From positions 3,847-67,846 of the forward strand of contig NZ_LMSD01000041.1 in assembly GCF_001428045.1 (NCBI RefSeq): DNA of 64,000 nucleotides. Reading direction: 5' to 3'. The notes beneath the pieces were generated by a model. That model saw only the letters and a list, made by a program, of their open reading frames with translations, ran no database searches and had not been told where the DNA came from. This DNA comes from Paenibacillus sp. Soil750. GTDB taxonomy: Bacteria; Bacillota; Bacilli; Paenibacillales; NBRC-103111. Position 1 is the stretch's first letter; each line of letters starts with the position of its first letter. Shown in pieces: positions 27,870 to 33,922 of this stretch. Made by a program: the position numbers and the translations under genes.

Positions 27870-28700
27870 ATGCGAATTCATTATGTATTACCGGAGCCAA
27901 TGTATAAACACTACACGGCGTATCCGGATATGATAGGTCAATATGCAGATTTCCCCGAGCATCAGGAGTGGCGGTTTAAGGGTCAGCTGCAACAAGCTAA
28001 TTTGCATATTGTGTTAGGTGGTAAAGGTTATGTCAAAGCGAATGGGAAGGAATTTACCCTGGAGGCAGGGCAAGGTTTCTATTACGGGGCGGGCCTTGAG
28101 CAGGAGTATCGAACAGATGCGAACGATCCATGGCAAGTATTTTGGGTACACCTTGCAGGTGAGGGGCTCGACAGGTTGTTGAATGATCAAGGTACTTCAG
28201 CTGTTTGGCTGTTTACGTATAGGGATGTACCCAAGCTCGAACAATTGACCGGAGACTTATTGGATTTGGCATCCCCATATGATCGGAACGAGGTGCATTT
28301 GGCCGTAAAGCTCTATGAACTACTTGCTGAGCTTGCCTTACGCGCGGAGACGCATGGAACAGTAACCATACTGGATAAGCGCGCACGGATGAGAGAGGTC
28401 GCCGAATATATTCGTACGCACTGCACGAAACCGCTAACTCTCCTGCAGATGGCCGAGCAGGCAGGCTTTAGTACCTACTATTTTAGTCGAATGTTTCACG
28501 AAGTGATGGGACGCACACCAGTCGTGTGGCTGTTCGAAAGTCGTCTTGTTGTAGCTAAACAACTGCTCATGTCTACCGAATGGACGATTAAGCAAGTAGC
28601 AGAGCATGTCGGATTTTCCCAGAGCAGTTACTTTATTGCGCGCTTCCGAGAGCATACCGGAATGACGCCACAGGAGTATCGGCGGCTGTACAGCACGTAG
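27870..28700 (+). CDS. AraC family regulator, probable activator of the GH42 gene
   Basis: A 276-residue regulator: an N-terminal cupin-like sugar-binding domain (about 1-150; HIVLGGKGYVKANGKEFTLEAGQGFYY) and a C-terminal double HTH (LLQMAEQAGFSTYYFSRMFHEVMG and IKQVAEHVGFSQSSYFIARFREHTG). GGAGGG lies shortly before the ATG at 27870. The divergent layout with the beta-galactosidase gene over about 140 bases is typical for a dedicated regulator. Confidence 0.9.
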   Translation: MRIHYVLPEPMYKHYTAYPDMIGQYADFPEHQEWRFKGQLQQANLHIVLGGKGYVKANGKEFTLEAGQGFYYGAGLEQEYRTDANDPWQVFWVHLAGEGLDRLLNDQGTSAVWLFTYRDVPKLEQLTGDLLDLASPYDRNEVHLAVKLYELLAELALRAETHGTVTILDKRARMREVAEYIRTHCTKPLTLLQMAEQAGFSTYYFSRMFHEVMGRTPVVWLFESRLVVAKQLLMSTEWTIKQVAEHVGFSQSSYFIARFREHTGMTPQEYRRLYST

Positions 28701-28889
28701 GTTTCCTATGTCCACTGAGCTTTATCTCCTAAAGAGCATTAATAAGTAGCAAAGTATGGGATAATCAACGTCACCACTACATGTATGCGCTTTCATCAAC
28801 TACCAAAGTCAAATAAGCAAAAATTAAAGGCGAATCTACGTTTTACATTCGATAAAGAACGGCGTAAGATTCATTACGACAAGTTGATT

Positions 28890-29070
28890 TTTTGTGAAAA
28901 GAAACCACTTAATTCCCAGTAGGGAAACGGGGGAACCAATCGAAGCCGTTCAAGCAATACTTGGCTTCATGGGGTGAATCCTGATGCTCGCAAGCATTAG
29001 GTAGGACGCTCTCAAGTCCGAATCCGACAGCTAACCTCGTAGGTGTATTGAGAGAGAACCGCACACTCGC
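28890..29070 (+). ncRNA. Cyclic-di-AMP riboswitch (ydaO/yuaA class)
   Basis: The leader contains, in order, the conserved blocks of the ydaO/yuaA aptamer: GGGAAACGGGGGAACC, then TGGGGTGAATCC, GGTAGGACGC, AAGTCCGAATCCGACAGC and TAACCTCGTAGG, with hairpins between them (GAAGCC...GGCTTC; TGATGCTCGCAAGCATTA; CTCTCAA...TTGAGAG). Binding of c-di-AMP normally favours the downstream terminator and switches the gene off. It sits about 100 bases before the ABC ATPase start. The exact ends are estimated. The region 28701-28889 before it should hold the promoter but shows no gene. Confidence 0.92.
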
Positions 29071-29083
29071 CTTCTTATGTGAA

Positions 29084-29127
29084 GAAGTCCGAGCGTAGAG
29101 ATTCTCTATGCTTAGGGCTTCTTTTTG
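29084..29127 (+). terminator. Riboswitch expression-platform terminator
   Basis: GAAGTCC pairs with GGGCTTC and AGCGTAGA with TCTATGCT inside it, followed by five T. It lies between the c-di-AMP aptamer and the ABC transporter genes, as expected for transcriptional control. Confidence 0.88.
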
Positions 29128-29176
29128 CTTGTCTTTCATCTAAAAAATAACATATATGTCATAAGGAGGATGTACG

Positions 29177-30061
29177 ATGCATGCCATTGAAATCAACAAT
29201 CTGACCAAAACCTATGGGAACGCAAGAGGGATTACCGACGTTAGTTTTACGATCGAAGAAGGGGAAATCTTTGGGTTTATTGGACCGAATGGGGCAGGGA
29301 AATCAACGACGATTCGAACGCTGCTGTCTCTGATTTTTCCCATAAGCGGCAGTGCCAAAATTTTCGGGAAAGACTGCATCCAGTTTGCACCAGAAATTAA
29401 GAAAGAGATCGGGTATTTACCGTCCGAGGTGTTCTATTATGACAACATGAAGGTGATCGACCTACTCAAGTATTCGGCCAGCTTTTACAAGAAGGATTGC
29501 ACCAAGAGAATCAAAGAGCTTGCTGAAATCATGGATCTAGACGTTACGAAGAAAATTGATGATCTATCTCTGGGGAACAAAAAGAAAGTGGGCATCGTTC
29601 AAGGGTTGCTGCATGATCCTAAGCTCATTATTCTGGATGAACCGACAAGTGGACTGGACCCGCTCATGCAGCAGAGGTTTTTCGAATTGCTCGAACAACA
29701 GAATCAAAGAGGAGCTACGATTCTTTTTTCCTCTCATATATTGAGTGAAGTTCAAAGATTATGTGATCGAGTCGCGATTATTAAGGAAGGCAGGATTGTA
29801 ACGGTTGAGAAAATCAGCACGTTAAAAGAAAACAATTTTAAGCGATTTAAAGTGGATACGGCACAAGCGCTTGATCCTAACTTTTTCAAAATGACCGGGG
29901 TCAATAACATTGATGTCCAAGGCCAGACGACGAGCTTCTTATTTAAAGGCAACATTAATCAAGTCATGCGAAAGATTGCTGAAATCGAAATTGATAATCT
30001 GTGGATCGAAGAGCCTGATTTAGAGGAGATCTTTATGCACTACTATGAGAAGGAGGCTTAA
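29177..30061 (+). CDS. ABC transporter ATP-binding protein (ABC-2 / BcrA type)
   Basis: The cytoplasmic ATPase of a three-gene ABC-2 transporter (294 residues). Walker A is GPNGAGKST, the signature LSLGNKKKVG, Walker B LIILDEPTSGLDP and the H-loop SSHIL. The C-terminal ~80 residues form the regulatory extension common in BcrA/NatA-like exporters. AAGGAGG precedes the ATG. The gene follows the c-di-AMP riboswitch, so the transporter would be lowered when c-di-AMP is high. Its substrate is unknown; ions, osmolytes, antibiotics or wall components are all possible. Confidence 0.93.
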   Translation: MHAIEINNLTKTYGNARGITDVSFTIEEGEIFGFIGPNGAGKSTTIRTLLSLIFPISGSAKIFGKDCIQFAPEIKKEIGYLPSEVFYYDNMKVIDLLKYSASFYKKDCTKRIKELAEIMDLDVTKKIDDLSLGNKKKVGIVQGLLHDPKLIILDEPTSGLDPLMQQRFFELLEQQNQRGATILFSSHILSEVQRLCDRVAIIKEGRIVTVEKISTLKENNFKRFKVDTAQALDPNFFKMTGVNNIDVQGQTTSFLFKGNINQVMRKIAEIEIDNLWIEEPDLEEIFMHYYEKEA

Positions 30062-30067
30062 AGCGGA

Positions 30068-30865
30068 ATGAATATATACCTTCATGAATTGAGAGCTTAT
30101 CGGAAGTCCACGATTACGTGGACGTGCTCCTTAATTGCGGTCATCGTTTTATTCCTATCCCTTTTTCCTTCGGTTTCTAAGGATTTTGCTGAGTTCTCTA
30201 AGGTATTAGAGGGGTATCCCGAAGGTGTCAGGAAAGCTCTTGGTATTCAAATCGAAACGTTCGGTACCCTACTCGGATTCTATGTGTACATCTTTATGTA
30301 CATTACGCTTTGCGGAGCCATTCAAGCCATGGTTCTGGGAACGTCAATACTCTCGAAAGAAATGCGTGAGAAAACAGCAGACTTTCTACTTACAAAGCCC
30401 GTAACACGTACGAAAATAGTCACTTCCAAGCTATTAGCGGCTGTTACTTCCTTAGTTATTACCTGCGTGATCTATATCGCTGCAGCTTATCTAATGGCGC
30501 TTCAAGTAAAAACGGTCGATTTTGATGTGAGCACATTTCTATTAATTTCCTTCACGTTGCTGTTTATCCAGCTGATGTTTCTTGCTATAGGATTCATCAC
30601 TTCGGTCGTGTTTTCTAAAATGAAAGCCGTGTTATCCGTCAGTCTGGGTACGGTGTTTGCCTTTTTCGTTATCGGAATGATCGTTGCCGTAGATGGGGAG
30701 GGGGCCAAACGGTATTTCTCGCCATTCAAATACTTTAATGGGACATACATGCTTGAGCATGCTAGCTATGAAGCCTCTTATATCATTGCAGCCATCGCGA
30801 TTATCGTTGCTTCGATTGCGGCAAGCTACTTCATCTACACGAAAAAGGATGTTCATGCCGTATAA
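30068..30865 (+). CDS. ABC-2 type transporter permease
   Basis: A 265-residue membrane protein with six helices. It begins with a cytoplasmic lead (MNIYLHELRAYRKSTITWT) and contains the REKTADFLLTKPVTRTKIVTSK segment characteristic of ABC-2 permeases. It starts seven bases after the ATPase stop and precedes a related permease, so the pair likely forms a heterodimeric channel. Confidence 0.92.
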   Translation: MNIYLHELRAYRKSTITWTCSLIAVIVLFLSLFPSVSKDFAEFSKVLEGYPEGVRKALGIQIETFGTLLGFYVYIFMYITLCGAIQAMVLGTSILSKEMREKTADFLLTKPVTRTKIVTSKLLAAVTSLVITCVIYIAAAYLMALQVKTVDFDVSTFLLISFTLLFIQLMFLAIGFITSVVFSKMKAVLSVSLGTVFAFFVIGMIVAVDGEGAKRYFSPFKYFNGTYMLEHASYEASYIIAAIAIIVASIAASYFIYTKKDVHAV

Positions 30866-30890
30866 ATGCGGGTGAGAGGGGGAATAACCA

Positions 30891-31685
30891 ATGAATATTT
30901 TTTGGCGAGAAATGAAGACGTTTCGGAAATCGATGATTTTTTGGAGTCTAGGGCTTATCTTTCTAATCGCAAGCGGCATGAACAAGTATCAAGCAACAGC
31001 AGCGAACGGACAGATAAATGATCTTATGGCGGAAATGCCGAAGTCACTCCAAGTGATTATGGGTGGCGGCGCATTAGATTTATCGAAGGCTAGCGGTTAT
31101 TTTGGCATCTTGGTCCTATATTTCTTGTTAATGGCAACGATCCATGCGGCCATGCTGGGCGCCAATATCATCGCGAAGGAAGAGCGGGATAAGACGGCAG
31201 AGTTTTTATTCGTGAAGCCTTTATCCAGAAACCAAATCATCACTTGGAAGCTGCTAAGCGCTTTCGTGAACATTGTTATTTTTAACCTCGTGTCATGGAT
31301 TTCGAGCATGTTGATTGTTGGGGCATATAGCAAAGGCGAGGCGGTCAACGGTGATATCTCCATCGTCATGCTGGGTATGTTTATTTTGCAGCTGCTCTTT
31401 CTAGTCATCGGAACATCCATTGCAGCCGTTTATCGAAATTCCAAAAAAGCATCCTCGCTATCAACGGGCATCATGCTCATTACGTTTATCTTATCCATTG
31501 CCATTGATTTCAACGATAAGCTGGCATTCTTGAAATATGTAACCCCATTTAAATTTTATGAGGCGAAGAATATTATGTATGGCGGTGGATTCGATGCCGT
31601 GTTTGTCATCATTTCGGTAGTTGTCATTGCCTTATTGACGGTTGTTACGTATGTTTCCTTTCAAAAACGAGATTTGCACGTCTAG
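30891..31685 (+). CDS. ABC-2 type transporter permease (second subunit)
   Basis: A paralogue of the preceding gene, 264 residues and six helices, with the parallel motif RDKTAEFLFVKPLSRNQIITWK and a similar start (MNIFWREMKTFRKSMIFWS). The similarity implies a local duplication. A strong terminator follows, ending the riboswitch-controlled operon. Confidence 0.92.
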   Translation: MNIFWREMKTFRKSMIFWSLGLIFLIASGMNKYQATAANGQINDLMAEMPKSLQVIMGGGALDLSKASGYFGILVLYFLLMATIHAAMLGANIIAKEERDKTAEFLFVKPLSRNQIITWKLLSAFVNIVIFNLVSWISSMLIVGAYSKGEAVNGDISIVMLGMFILQLLFLVIGTSIAAVYRNSKKASSLSTGIMLITFILSIAIDFNDKLAFLKYVTPFKFYEAKNIMYGGGFDAVFVIISVVVIALLTVVTYVSFQKRDLHV

Positions 31686-31771: not shown

Positions 31772-33922
31772 TTATTTCTTCAAATCCAAACGCACATCGC
31801 GACCATCGTCTTGTACAGATAACTCTTTACCAGCAGCCTTCAGGGAATTGACGTGATTTACCCATGCGTCTAGCATGATGGCGCCATCTTTCCAATCCTT
31901 CACTTCACCGAATACCGTAAAGCCATCGCCGCTGCCTGTAGCCATGAAATCATTGGTTGTCACTTTGAACGTACGGTCTGTATTAAACTTGCCATCCACA
32001 TAGATCGGAGTGCCATCTACTAAAGTAATTTTGGAATATTTCTCACCAAGTGGCTTTGTGTTATCCCATTCTACCTTCAAACCTGAGAATTGAATGGCTG
32101 GAAGACTTGTATACTTGTCTGTAACTTCGAGCGCTTTTTTAATTTGTGCAGCAGTCATCGTACCCGTTACATTGTAATTGCCAAAAGGGAGTACTTCAAA
32201 CATTTCGCTATAGGTTAGCTCACCTTTGTCAATATCCGTGCGAATACCGCCAATATTCGTGAAAGCAATATCGGATTTCTCAGAAGCGCGCATCGCATCT
32301 GTGATGCTGTTGCCTAACTGTGTTGCACCGTCGCGGTCAGCCCCACCATTAGCAGCAAAACGGAAAGATTTACGATTAAGCTGCTCTGCAACTACGACTT
32401 CCACTTCGCCGGATTTGCCTGAGATTTTGGCTTTATAGTCTTCAACCGTTTGGTGAATTTTCGGGTCGGCCGTCGTTAAGTTCGTATAGGTCTCGAGCAA
32501 GCTTGCATTGGAGGAAACGACTTGCTTTGTAGTTTTGTCTACGAACAGTTGAATGTGTCCAACCGCATATAGCCAACTTTGAGCTTCAACAACAGGGATG
32601 CCATTCACAATACCGGCAACGCGCATATGGGAGTGACCACCAACAATGGCATCTAGGGTACCATTGCCAGTACCTTTTGCAAGATCAGCAAGCTCACTGA
32701 TAATTTCAGCAGACTTTTGGTTTTGCTCACCTGGCAGGTGGGAGGTAACCATGATGATATCGACGCCTTTCGCGCGAAGCTCATCTGACAATTCTTTCGC
32801 CAAAGGAACTGGATTTACAAAGGAAAGGCCTTCGATGTTCGTTGATTTCGTTGTTGTTTTCGTTTGAGGCGTTGCGAAACCGATGATGCCGATTTTCAGG
32901 CCATCTTTTTCAATAATGACATAAGGCTGTGTCCAGTCGACACGTTTGCCGGTTTGATCATCAATAATATTAGCCCCGAGAATAGGGAATTTAGCCTTCT
33001 TAATATTGTCGATCAGAACGTCACGGCCGAAGTCGAACTCATGATTTCCGATAGCCGCAGCATCATATTGCACTTGCGCCATTGTATCCATTACGGATTG
33101 ACCATTCGTTGTATTGGAAATTAGTGTACCTTGCCAAGCGTCACCGCCGTCAACAACAACCGTTCCTTTGGGATTGACAGCACGGAAATCGGACACGATA
33201 CCGCCGAATGTTTCGATACCGCCTTGACCTTGATTACGCTTTTTATCGAAGCCGACTTCGATTTTTCCGTGAATATCGTTCGTTGTTAAAATATCAACCA
33301 CTTTAAATAGAATAGGCTTAAGCGCCTTAGCTACTTCATCACGTGTGACTTCAGCAGTAGGGTTGAAATTACCATCGAGAGTAGGAGTGAAAATTCCGCT
33401 AATGACGGCATAAGCGACATAAGGGCGGGAATCTTTGGCGATTGAAGTGGAGTCTTTGAAGTAATTCAACACATTCTCGTTTACTTGTGGCAGTTTGCCG
33501 CCAGTAACAACTTTCACGATTAACTCGGCAAGCTCTTGACGCGTCACGGCAGCATTCGGATGAAACGTACCATCAGCAAAACCGCTAATTAGTTTAGCTG
33601 CAACGGCATTCGCAACAGCTTGTTTTTGCCAAGTCGCAAGGTCCGTGAACGTAACAGTACTAGGATCAGCACTTTGCAGCTTAGCTGCACGGTTAATCAT
33701 CGTTACCACTTCAGCGCGAGTAGCGGCATTTGCACCACGGTAGTCTGTATCTCCGTAGCCCTCTACAATACCGTTATCAATGGCAAGACGCATATCTGTT
33801 TTCATTGAAACAGGTGAAGTTGGTGTGGTTGTTTCGGCAAATGCTAGGCTGCTAGCGAAAGAACCAGTGAGAACGGTTACAAGCGCAAGCGCAGTAAGGC
33901 GAGTAGTGAATGTTTTTTTCAT
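31772..33922 (-). CDS. SLH-anchored 5'-nucleotidase / cyclic phosphodiesterase
   Basis: A secreted wall-bound metallophosphoesterase of about 716 residues. A signal peptide (to about LAFAE) precedes three S-layer homology domains (residues ~45-205; each with the GYGDTDYRGANAATRAE or GFADGTFHPNAAVTRQE type motif). The catalytic UshA-like domain has TNDIHG, GGDAWQG, GNHEFDFG, THE segment SHLPGE and GGHSH. The C-terminal 5'-nucleotidase domain has NIGGIR and TNDFMATGSGDGF. It would release phosphate and nucleosides from external nucleotides. AGGAGG-type site upstream. The promoter should lie in 33923-34044. Confidence 0.93.
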   Translation of the reverse strand: MKKTFTTRLTALALVTVLTGSFASSLAFAETTTPTSPVSMKTDMRLAIDNGIVEGYGDTDYRGANAATRAEVVTMINRAAKLQSADPSTVTFTDLATWQKQAVANAVAAKLISGFADGTFHPNAAVTRQELAELIVKVVTGGKLPQVNENVLNYFKDSTSIAKDSRPYVAYAVISGIFTPTLDGNFNPTAEVTRDEVAKALKPILFKVVDILTTNDIHGKIEVGFDKKRNQGQGGIETFGGIVSDFRAVNPKGTVVVDGGDAWQGTLISNTTNGQSVMDTMAQVQYDAAAIGNHEFDFGRDVLIDNIKKAKFPILGANIIDDQTGKRVDWTQPYVIIEKDGLKIGIIGFATPQTKTTTKSTNIEGLSFVNPVPLAKELSDELRAKGVDIIMVTSHLPGEQNQKSAEIISELADLAKGTGNGTLDAIVGGHSHMRVAGIVNGIPVVEAQSWLYAVGHIQLFVDKTTKQVVSSNASLLETYTNLTTADPKIHQTVEDYKAKISGKSGEVEVVVAEQLNRKSFRFAANGGADRDGATQLGNSITDAMRASEKSDIAFTNIGGIRTDIDKGELTYSEMFEVLPFGNYNVTGTMTAAQIKKALEVTDKYTSLPAIQFSGLKVEWDNTKPLGEKYSKITLVDGTPIYVDGKFNTDRTFKVTTNDFMATGSGDGFTVFGEVKDWKDGAIMLDAWVNHVNSLKAAGKELSVQDDGRDVRLDLKK

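Follow-up and report, generated by a model that had tools for sequence, protein, structure and literature searches.

The question raised by this stretch of the genome of Paenibacillus sp. Soil750 (64 kb, hereafter the window) is whether a riboswitch for cyclic di-adenosine monophosphate (c-di-AMP) controls an operon for an ATP-binding cassette (ABC) transporter of the ABC-2 type and, if so, how a leader of this class came to stand ahead of exporter genes. The presence of a c-di-AMP riboswitch directly ahead of the ABC-2 operon is confirmed, and the arrangement is likely to represent a transcriptional OFF riboswitch on an exporter operon, derived from a copied resident cassette of the kdp type. 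A first-pass annotation of the sequence had placed the feature at 28890-31685, in agreement with the elements found here to within a few bases.

The riboswitch leader and the ABC-2 operon

Covariance search of the whole window listed a single c-di-AMP riboswitch (RF00379), at 28896-29061 on the plus strand, with 89.8 bits (gathering score 38), an E-value of 1.1e-19 and a match to the full length of the model (positions 1-134 of 134), and zero non-standard pairs were flagged in the alignment; the aptamer first recognized from its ydaO/yuaA blocks is thereby borne out. Within it, CUCUCAA at 29009-29015 and UUGAGAG at 29048-29054 are complementary and probably form a pseudoknot (29009-29054, plus strand). 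The aptamer is followed by an intrinsic terminator at 29081-29126 on the same strand (stem 29081-29124, U tract 29122-29126), for which hairpin and U tract together give -26.7 kcal/mol compared with a mean of -11.7 for shuffled sequences (z -6.0, 0 of 200 shuffles as good), so that the terminator reported in the first-pass annotation also holds. The hairpin was not listed by a simple consensus terminator scan of 28600-29300, which found none; paired changes occur in its stem among related leaders (14 usable rows of 16, with L160 and L166 left out), and it shows kinship with kdp terminators.

Three closely spaced, co-directional open reading frames (ORFs) lie 3' of the terminator on the plus strand, with AAGGAGG, resembling a ribosome-binding site, between the terminator and the first of them. 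These encode an ABC ATPase of 294 aa (29177-30061), which reaches the Pfam gathering score of PF00005, and two ABC-2 half-permeases of 265 aa (30068-30865; PF12679, 83.9 bits) and 264 aa (30891-31685), both above the gathering score of PF12679. The description of the operon as one ABC ATPase and two ABC-2 permeases is thus upheld by Pfam, while the label 'BcrA-type' is loose: among the best 25 of 185 NCBIfam families matched by the ATPase none was at its cut-off, the scores for GldA, DrrA and PmtA being 211.3, 195.2 and 158 bits against cut-offs of 402.6, 312.45 and 350. By sequence, the closest solved relative of the ATPase is Rv1218c (E 4.3e-52), and the predicted fold of permease 2 has its best match in the mycobacterial Rv1218c efflux pump (8k1m-8k1p). 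Searched by sequence against solved structures, permease 2 returned nothing meaningful, and a search of a defence library matched only the ATPase domain of the ATPase, with zero matches for either permease. The permease in the mycobacterial pump goes by the name Rv1217c. Taken together, the ATPase sequence and the predicted fold of permease 2 suggest that the operon encodes an ABC-2 exporter in the fold class of the Rv1218c pump and NosFY.

Regarding conservation, the window was compared with four relatives bearing the same leader and operon. The three ORFs are under strong purifying selection (dN/dS 0.02-0.09 overall, 0.02-0.04 for the ATPase and 0.07-0.09 for permease 1). Identity in all five was 0.90 for the aptamer, 1.00 for the linker, 0.83 for the promoter and 0.81 for the terminator, and 0.21 and 0.23 for the flanking spacers at dS up to 0.96, low values that are owed partly to alignment breaks, an insertion in L041 and differing neighbours (pairwise, spacer identity is 0.24-0.93 upstream and 0.39-0.87 downstream). 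Conservation is thus higher in aptamer, linker and terminator than in the adjoining spacers.

Distribution of the leader, its operon and other c-di-AMP leaders

The operon family was sampled as the best 80 of 81 loci encoding relatives of permease 2; all 80 loci were scanned with a riboswitch motif, 10 directly with Rfam, and the genomes of 50 of the 80 with Rfam under stricter filters, among the matches listed. The motif was found at 5 of the 80 loci (L071 and L111 being without an upstream region), namely in P. plantarum, P. qinlingensis, Paenibacillus sp. Soil766, P. oryzisoli and Robertmurraya yapensis, and Rfam confirmed the riboswitch at all five but detected none at five further family loci scanned. 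In the four Paenibacillus relatives the leader lies directly ahead of the ATPase gene, as in the window. Among 30 same-genus genomes examined the operon is present in five, all of which have the leader (one of them, G094, is taken to be P. qinlingensis, L040, since the coordinates agree), so that the comparison with related genomes proposed at the outset gave the same leader ahead of the same operon in five of five. Neither a missing covariance hit nor a different gene behind the leader in relatives, the grounds on which the first-pass annotation would have been refuted, was thus encountered. In R. yapensis (L067) the riboswitch is real (93.9 bits) and lies upstream of a TetR gene and the operon; it was not counted as operon control, and hence not as independent support, because a terminator-like hairpin, an ORF of ~20 codons and TetR operator-like palindromes intervene. 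A match to BsrG RNA (99 bits) is also located near this exporter operon, at L067:7253-7502 on the minus strand.

Most relatives have a different gene in the place of the leader. A TetR gene of one family precedes the ATPase gene in 55 of 81 loci (the 80 plus the window) and is absent at all five riboswitch-bearing Paenibacillus operons, the best match to this family in the genome of the window reaching just 33.9 bits. Operator-like palindromes (TGACCA-N-TGGTCA-like) stand before 36 of 54 TetR genes and before 0 of 5 riboswitch-bearing operons, counts for which there is no background count. A rapidly built tree of the operon proteins (all three; 80 rows, SH-aLRT support alone) unites the five riboswitch-bearing operons in one clade (SH-aLRT 100), with nine Gottfriedia-group loci as its sister clade (SH-aLRT 100). 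These nine are also without the family TetR and carry a divergent gene of another kind, which has a TetR_N domain in the single one tested, L043. Horizontal acquisition of the operon from a Bacillaceae donor fits this distribution, with loss elsewhere as the alternative.

The genome of the window has eight RF00379 matches. The other seven leaders precede genes for a LysM-CAP protein, the kdp operon, a KimA-like permease (AA_permease_2), a DUF348/G5/3D protein, a 3D protein with Cu_amine_oxidN1 and two NlpC/P60 proteins, one of which also has Cu_amine_oxidN1. Targets were surveyed more widely for 122 leaders (115 of at least 210 matches in 25 same-genus genomes, six from P. qinlingensis and one from Robertmurraya), whose classes were mostly named by eye from N-termini, those of the genome of the window being checked with hidden Markov models and those of L042rs, L119, L162 and L147 relabelled by hand. 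The ABC-2 operon lies behind five leaders, and TetR together with the operon behind one; the remaining 116 comprise 26 LysM-CAP, 26 KimA, 15 Kdp, 11 stalk, 10 YabE-type and nine leaders of a ~128-aa protein, together with smaller classes, and no ABC ATPase was found behind any of these 116, whose downstream genes were read. Behind 59 leaders with an ORF (in 60 regions of other genomes, among the matches listed) there was no ABC-2 exporter, and the two ABC ATPases seen were, as read by eye, both of the osmolyte-importer kind. The target is thus less usual, as had been claimed, with an ABC-2 exporter behind 0 of 175 other leaders read. According to PMC9960051 and PMC3766115, known targets serve the transport of ions, osmolytes and amino acids or are enzymes of the wall, with which the survey agrees. 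A literature search that was without the main target lists (Block 2010, Nelson 2013) turned up no description of an ABC-2 exporter placed after a c-di-AMP riboswitch. The riboswitch class itself is known, and the ABC-2 exporter would be an added kind of target for the c-di-AMP regulon.

Several other targets were recorded in the survey. EcsAB at L005 was considered as a second ABC target and rejected, the riboswitch being on the minus strand of a locus that had not been oriented and its target being a DUF348/G5/3D protein. Genes that resemble lysine 2,3-aminomutase by their N-termini lie behind L155 and L156 (G013), L162 (G022; a remnant) and L283 (G088), and would place a beta-lysine osmolyte route under c-di-AMP. 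The conserved ~128-aa protein lies behind L122, L123, L125, L130, L146, L172, L174, L175 and L177, and a 110-residue piece of it had no Pfam match. Two or three riboswitches are clustered on the same strand at G017:C36:247301-247733 (L199 and L126, there before kdpA), G050:C12:213908-215184, G085:C6:262824-263808 and G088:C9:35299-35754.

Kinship with kdp leaders, the predicted switch and alternative explanations

Regarding the origin of the leader, the five ABC2 leaders form one clade in the tree of 122 leaders (support 100/98); joined by 11 Kdp leaders they make up a larger clade of 16 rows (100/98), and the same 16 rows group in the aptamer-only tree (98/95). BLAST with the platform only returned the same 11 Kdp leaders as the top matches outside ABC2, at E-values of 5e-11 to 2e-4 with the next at 0.025; with L042 as query these were 4e-12 to 1e-5 and 0.007. 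Behind the 11 Kdp leaders (a twelfth region, L291, was picked wrongly and left out), kdpA is located within 6 kb in nine, and a KdpB-like ORF, identified by eye, without a preceding kdpA in two (L176, L204); NCBIfam assigned the name kdpA to fragments of L002 and L126 at scores below the full-length cut-off. A KdpB-like ORF that lacks a kdpA ahead of it is recorded behind the kdp-type leaders of L292 (G017) and L297 (G002). A cysteine-rich ORF of ~150 aa lies between leader and kdp genes at L202, L290, L294, L296 and other kdp leaders, and a 60-residue piece of it had no Pfam match.

The promoter points in the same direction. A sigma-70 promoter, TTTACA-17-TAAGAT, is predicted at 28842-28870 on the plus strand in the layout of kdp-type leader promoters and has 9 of 12 consensus matches, the loose scan of 28600-29300 giving one site where 1.2 are expected. 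The pattern TTTAC-N15-20-GTAANAT occurs once on the two strands of the window, at the ABC-2 leader, and precedes 4 of 5 ABC2, 11 of 15 Kdp, 8 of 10 YabE, 2 of 26 KimA and 0 of 26 LysM-CAP leaders; for the fifth ABC2 leader (L041) it is located ahead of an insertion. Promoter, aptamer and terminator thus seem to move as a unit. Because kdp leaders are the more widely spread, the direction was presumably from kdp to exporter and not the reverse. Judged from these comparisons, a kdp-type promoter-aptamer-terminator cassette was probably copied onto the exporter operon, an origin that the first-pass annotation had overlooked together with the missing TetR, its placing of the leader directly before the ABC-2 operon being supported. 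The locus would provide a traceable case of a complete riboswitch cassette moved to an operon whose relatives follow a protein repressor gene.

According to the proposed mechanism, a cassette of kdp (K+ uptake) would have been copied ahead of an exporter whose relatives mostly follow a TetR gene. When c-di-AMP is bound, the aptamer would hold its 3' tail, the terminator at 29081-29126 would form and transcription would stop before the ATPase gene; when c-di-AMP is low, as under K+ limitation, the free tail would pair with the top of the terminator and RNA polymerase would read into the operon. The predicted antiterminator (29053-29107, plus strand) pairs AGAGAA at 29053-29058 with UUCUCU at 29102-29107 and encloses CUCG/CGAG and CUUCUU/AAGAAG pairings (29066-29093), and minimum free energy (MFE) folds of truncated transcripts contain such a transient pairing of aptamer 3' tail and terminator top in all five ABC2 leaders. 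PMC6488665 describes the kdp riboswitch of B. thuringiensis as a transcriptional OFF switch and a drop of c-di-AMP in this organism under K+ limitation, and PMC9960051 reports that the kimA riboswitch of Bacillus acts by termination, likewise as an OFF switch. Because the kdp switch of the same class was shown to be OFF, expression of the operon is predicted at low c-di-AMP (K+ limitation); ligand response and OFF direction are ascribed to the leader of the window by this analogy, and the antiterminator model is plausible but unproven. Two diadenylate cyclase domains are encoded in the genome of the window. ATPase and half-permeases would assemble into an exporter active under the conditions that also bring about synthesis of Kdp and KimA, and with a kdp-type switch the exporter is therefore probably switched on together with potassium uptake, raising the physiological question of what a cell with little c-di-AMP and active K+ uptake would have to export. 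The connection of turgor or wall signalling with export that the first-pass annotation proposed remains an inference. In a bolder version, which appears rather unlikely, an exporter probably gained by horizontal transfer came under the K+/c-di-AMP regulon in a single step, when a copy of the resident kdp cassette (promoter, aptamer, terminator) was captured in place of control by a protein repressor; it would be co-induced with Kdp because cells that are starved of K+ and hyperpolarised take up a toxic cation or amphiphile, which the exporter would remove.

Several observations weigh against an OFF switch copied from kdp, as does the qualification on spacer identity given above. The association of riboswitch and operon is limited to one clade, a few Paenibacillus from soil, the second locus in Robertmurraya (L067) is ambiguous, and the family TetR is missing in the sister Gottfriedia group as well, so that loss of TetR may predate the leader. 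In the leader tree, the position of the ABC2 leaders inside or beside the Kdp leaders is an open fork, which makes a common donor leader possible, and 4 of 15 Kdp leaders, of other types, are placed elsewhere. Regarding the switch, the antiterminator was predicted by truncated-transcript folding in just 5 of 11 Kdp leaders, and it is only suggestive in the ABC2 leaders because the duplex of tail and terminator gains nothing in strength over shuffled tails, of which 54 of 200 were as low in energy (12 for Kdp and 18 for YabE leaders). The MFE fold of the full leader, in which pseudoknots are ignored, makes the terminator but not aptamer P1, and thermodynamics alone therefore does not demonstrate switching.

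The open fork would also be accommodated if ABC2 and Kdp leaders descended from one older leader type and the operon had always had a riboswitch, lost in other lineages, to which the riboswitch upstream of TetR and operon in Robertmurraya would likewise belong; this is unlikely in view of the presence of the leader at only 5 of the 80 family loci and at 0 of 9 sister Gottfriedia-group loci by motif scan, and the L067 leader stands apart from those of the ABC2 group. Alternatively, the leader may be a relic, a true aptamer brought by rearrangement that terminates constitutively and no longer switches while a promoter that escaped detection drives the operon, as would agree with the shuffle test and with a chance arrival of the kdp-kin leader. 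The conservation of aptamer, linker and terminator while the spacers diverge, the purifying selection on all three ORFs and the lack of a second promoter-like site on either strand in a loose consensus scan of 28600-29300 make this quite improbable. An ON switch, in which c-di-AMP favours read-through and the exporter relieves high c-di-AMP or exports c-di-AMP itself, is suggested by the neighbouring gene, a 5'-nucleotidase with SLH and metallophosphatase domains (31772-33922, minus strand) that is convergent with the operon, also adjoins it in L039-L041 (by the N-terminus of the next ORF) and could degrade the nucleotide outside. The nucleotidase is, however, encoded on the opposite strand and does not appear as the next ORF (minimum 60 aa) in L042 or the remaining listed relatives, and the Bacillus kdp and kimA leaders are, in the sources cited, OFF switches, which leaves this reading with very little probability compared with an OFF switch from a copied kdp-type cassette.

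Comparison with known systems

The predicted fold of permease 2 is shared with the Rv1218c pump at 14% identity of the permease, a likeness that does not by itself establish a function such as drug transport; the matched chain of the pump has 530 residues and was aligned over its first half only, whereas the window encodes two half-permeases, and there is no TetR at the window operon. TetR-ATPase-permease-permease operons of Neobacillus, Bacillus, other Paenibacillus and Clostridium have a related ATPase and permeases in the same order, with a TetR gene and palindromes where the window operon has the riboswitch. Movement of leaders onto ABC transporter genes, as in the window, is described for 'hopping' attenuators (PMC2965389), though the main text of that paper does not name ydaO. 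The B. subtilis ydaO/kimA riboswitch is of the same aptamer family and is reported in PMC9960051 to cause termination upon ligand binding; its target is KimA, and the KimA leaders of the genus sit in another clade than the window leader. The kdpFABC riboswitch of B. thuringiensis (PMC6488665) shares the aptamer family and the intrinsic terminator with the window leader and controls a K+ importer, whereas the window leader precedes genes recognized from sequence as those of an ABC-2 exporter; the nearest kin of the window leader are the kdp leaders of its own genus.

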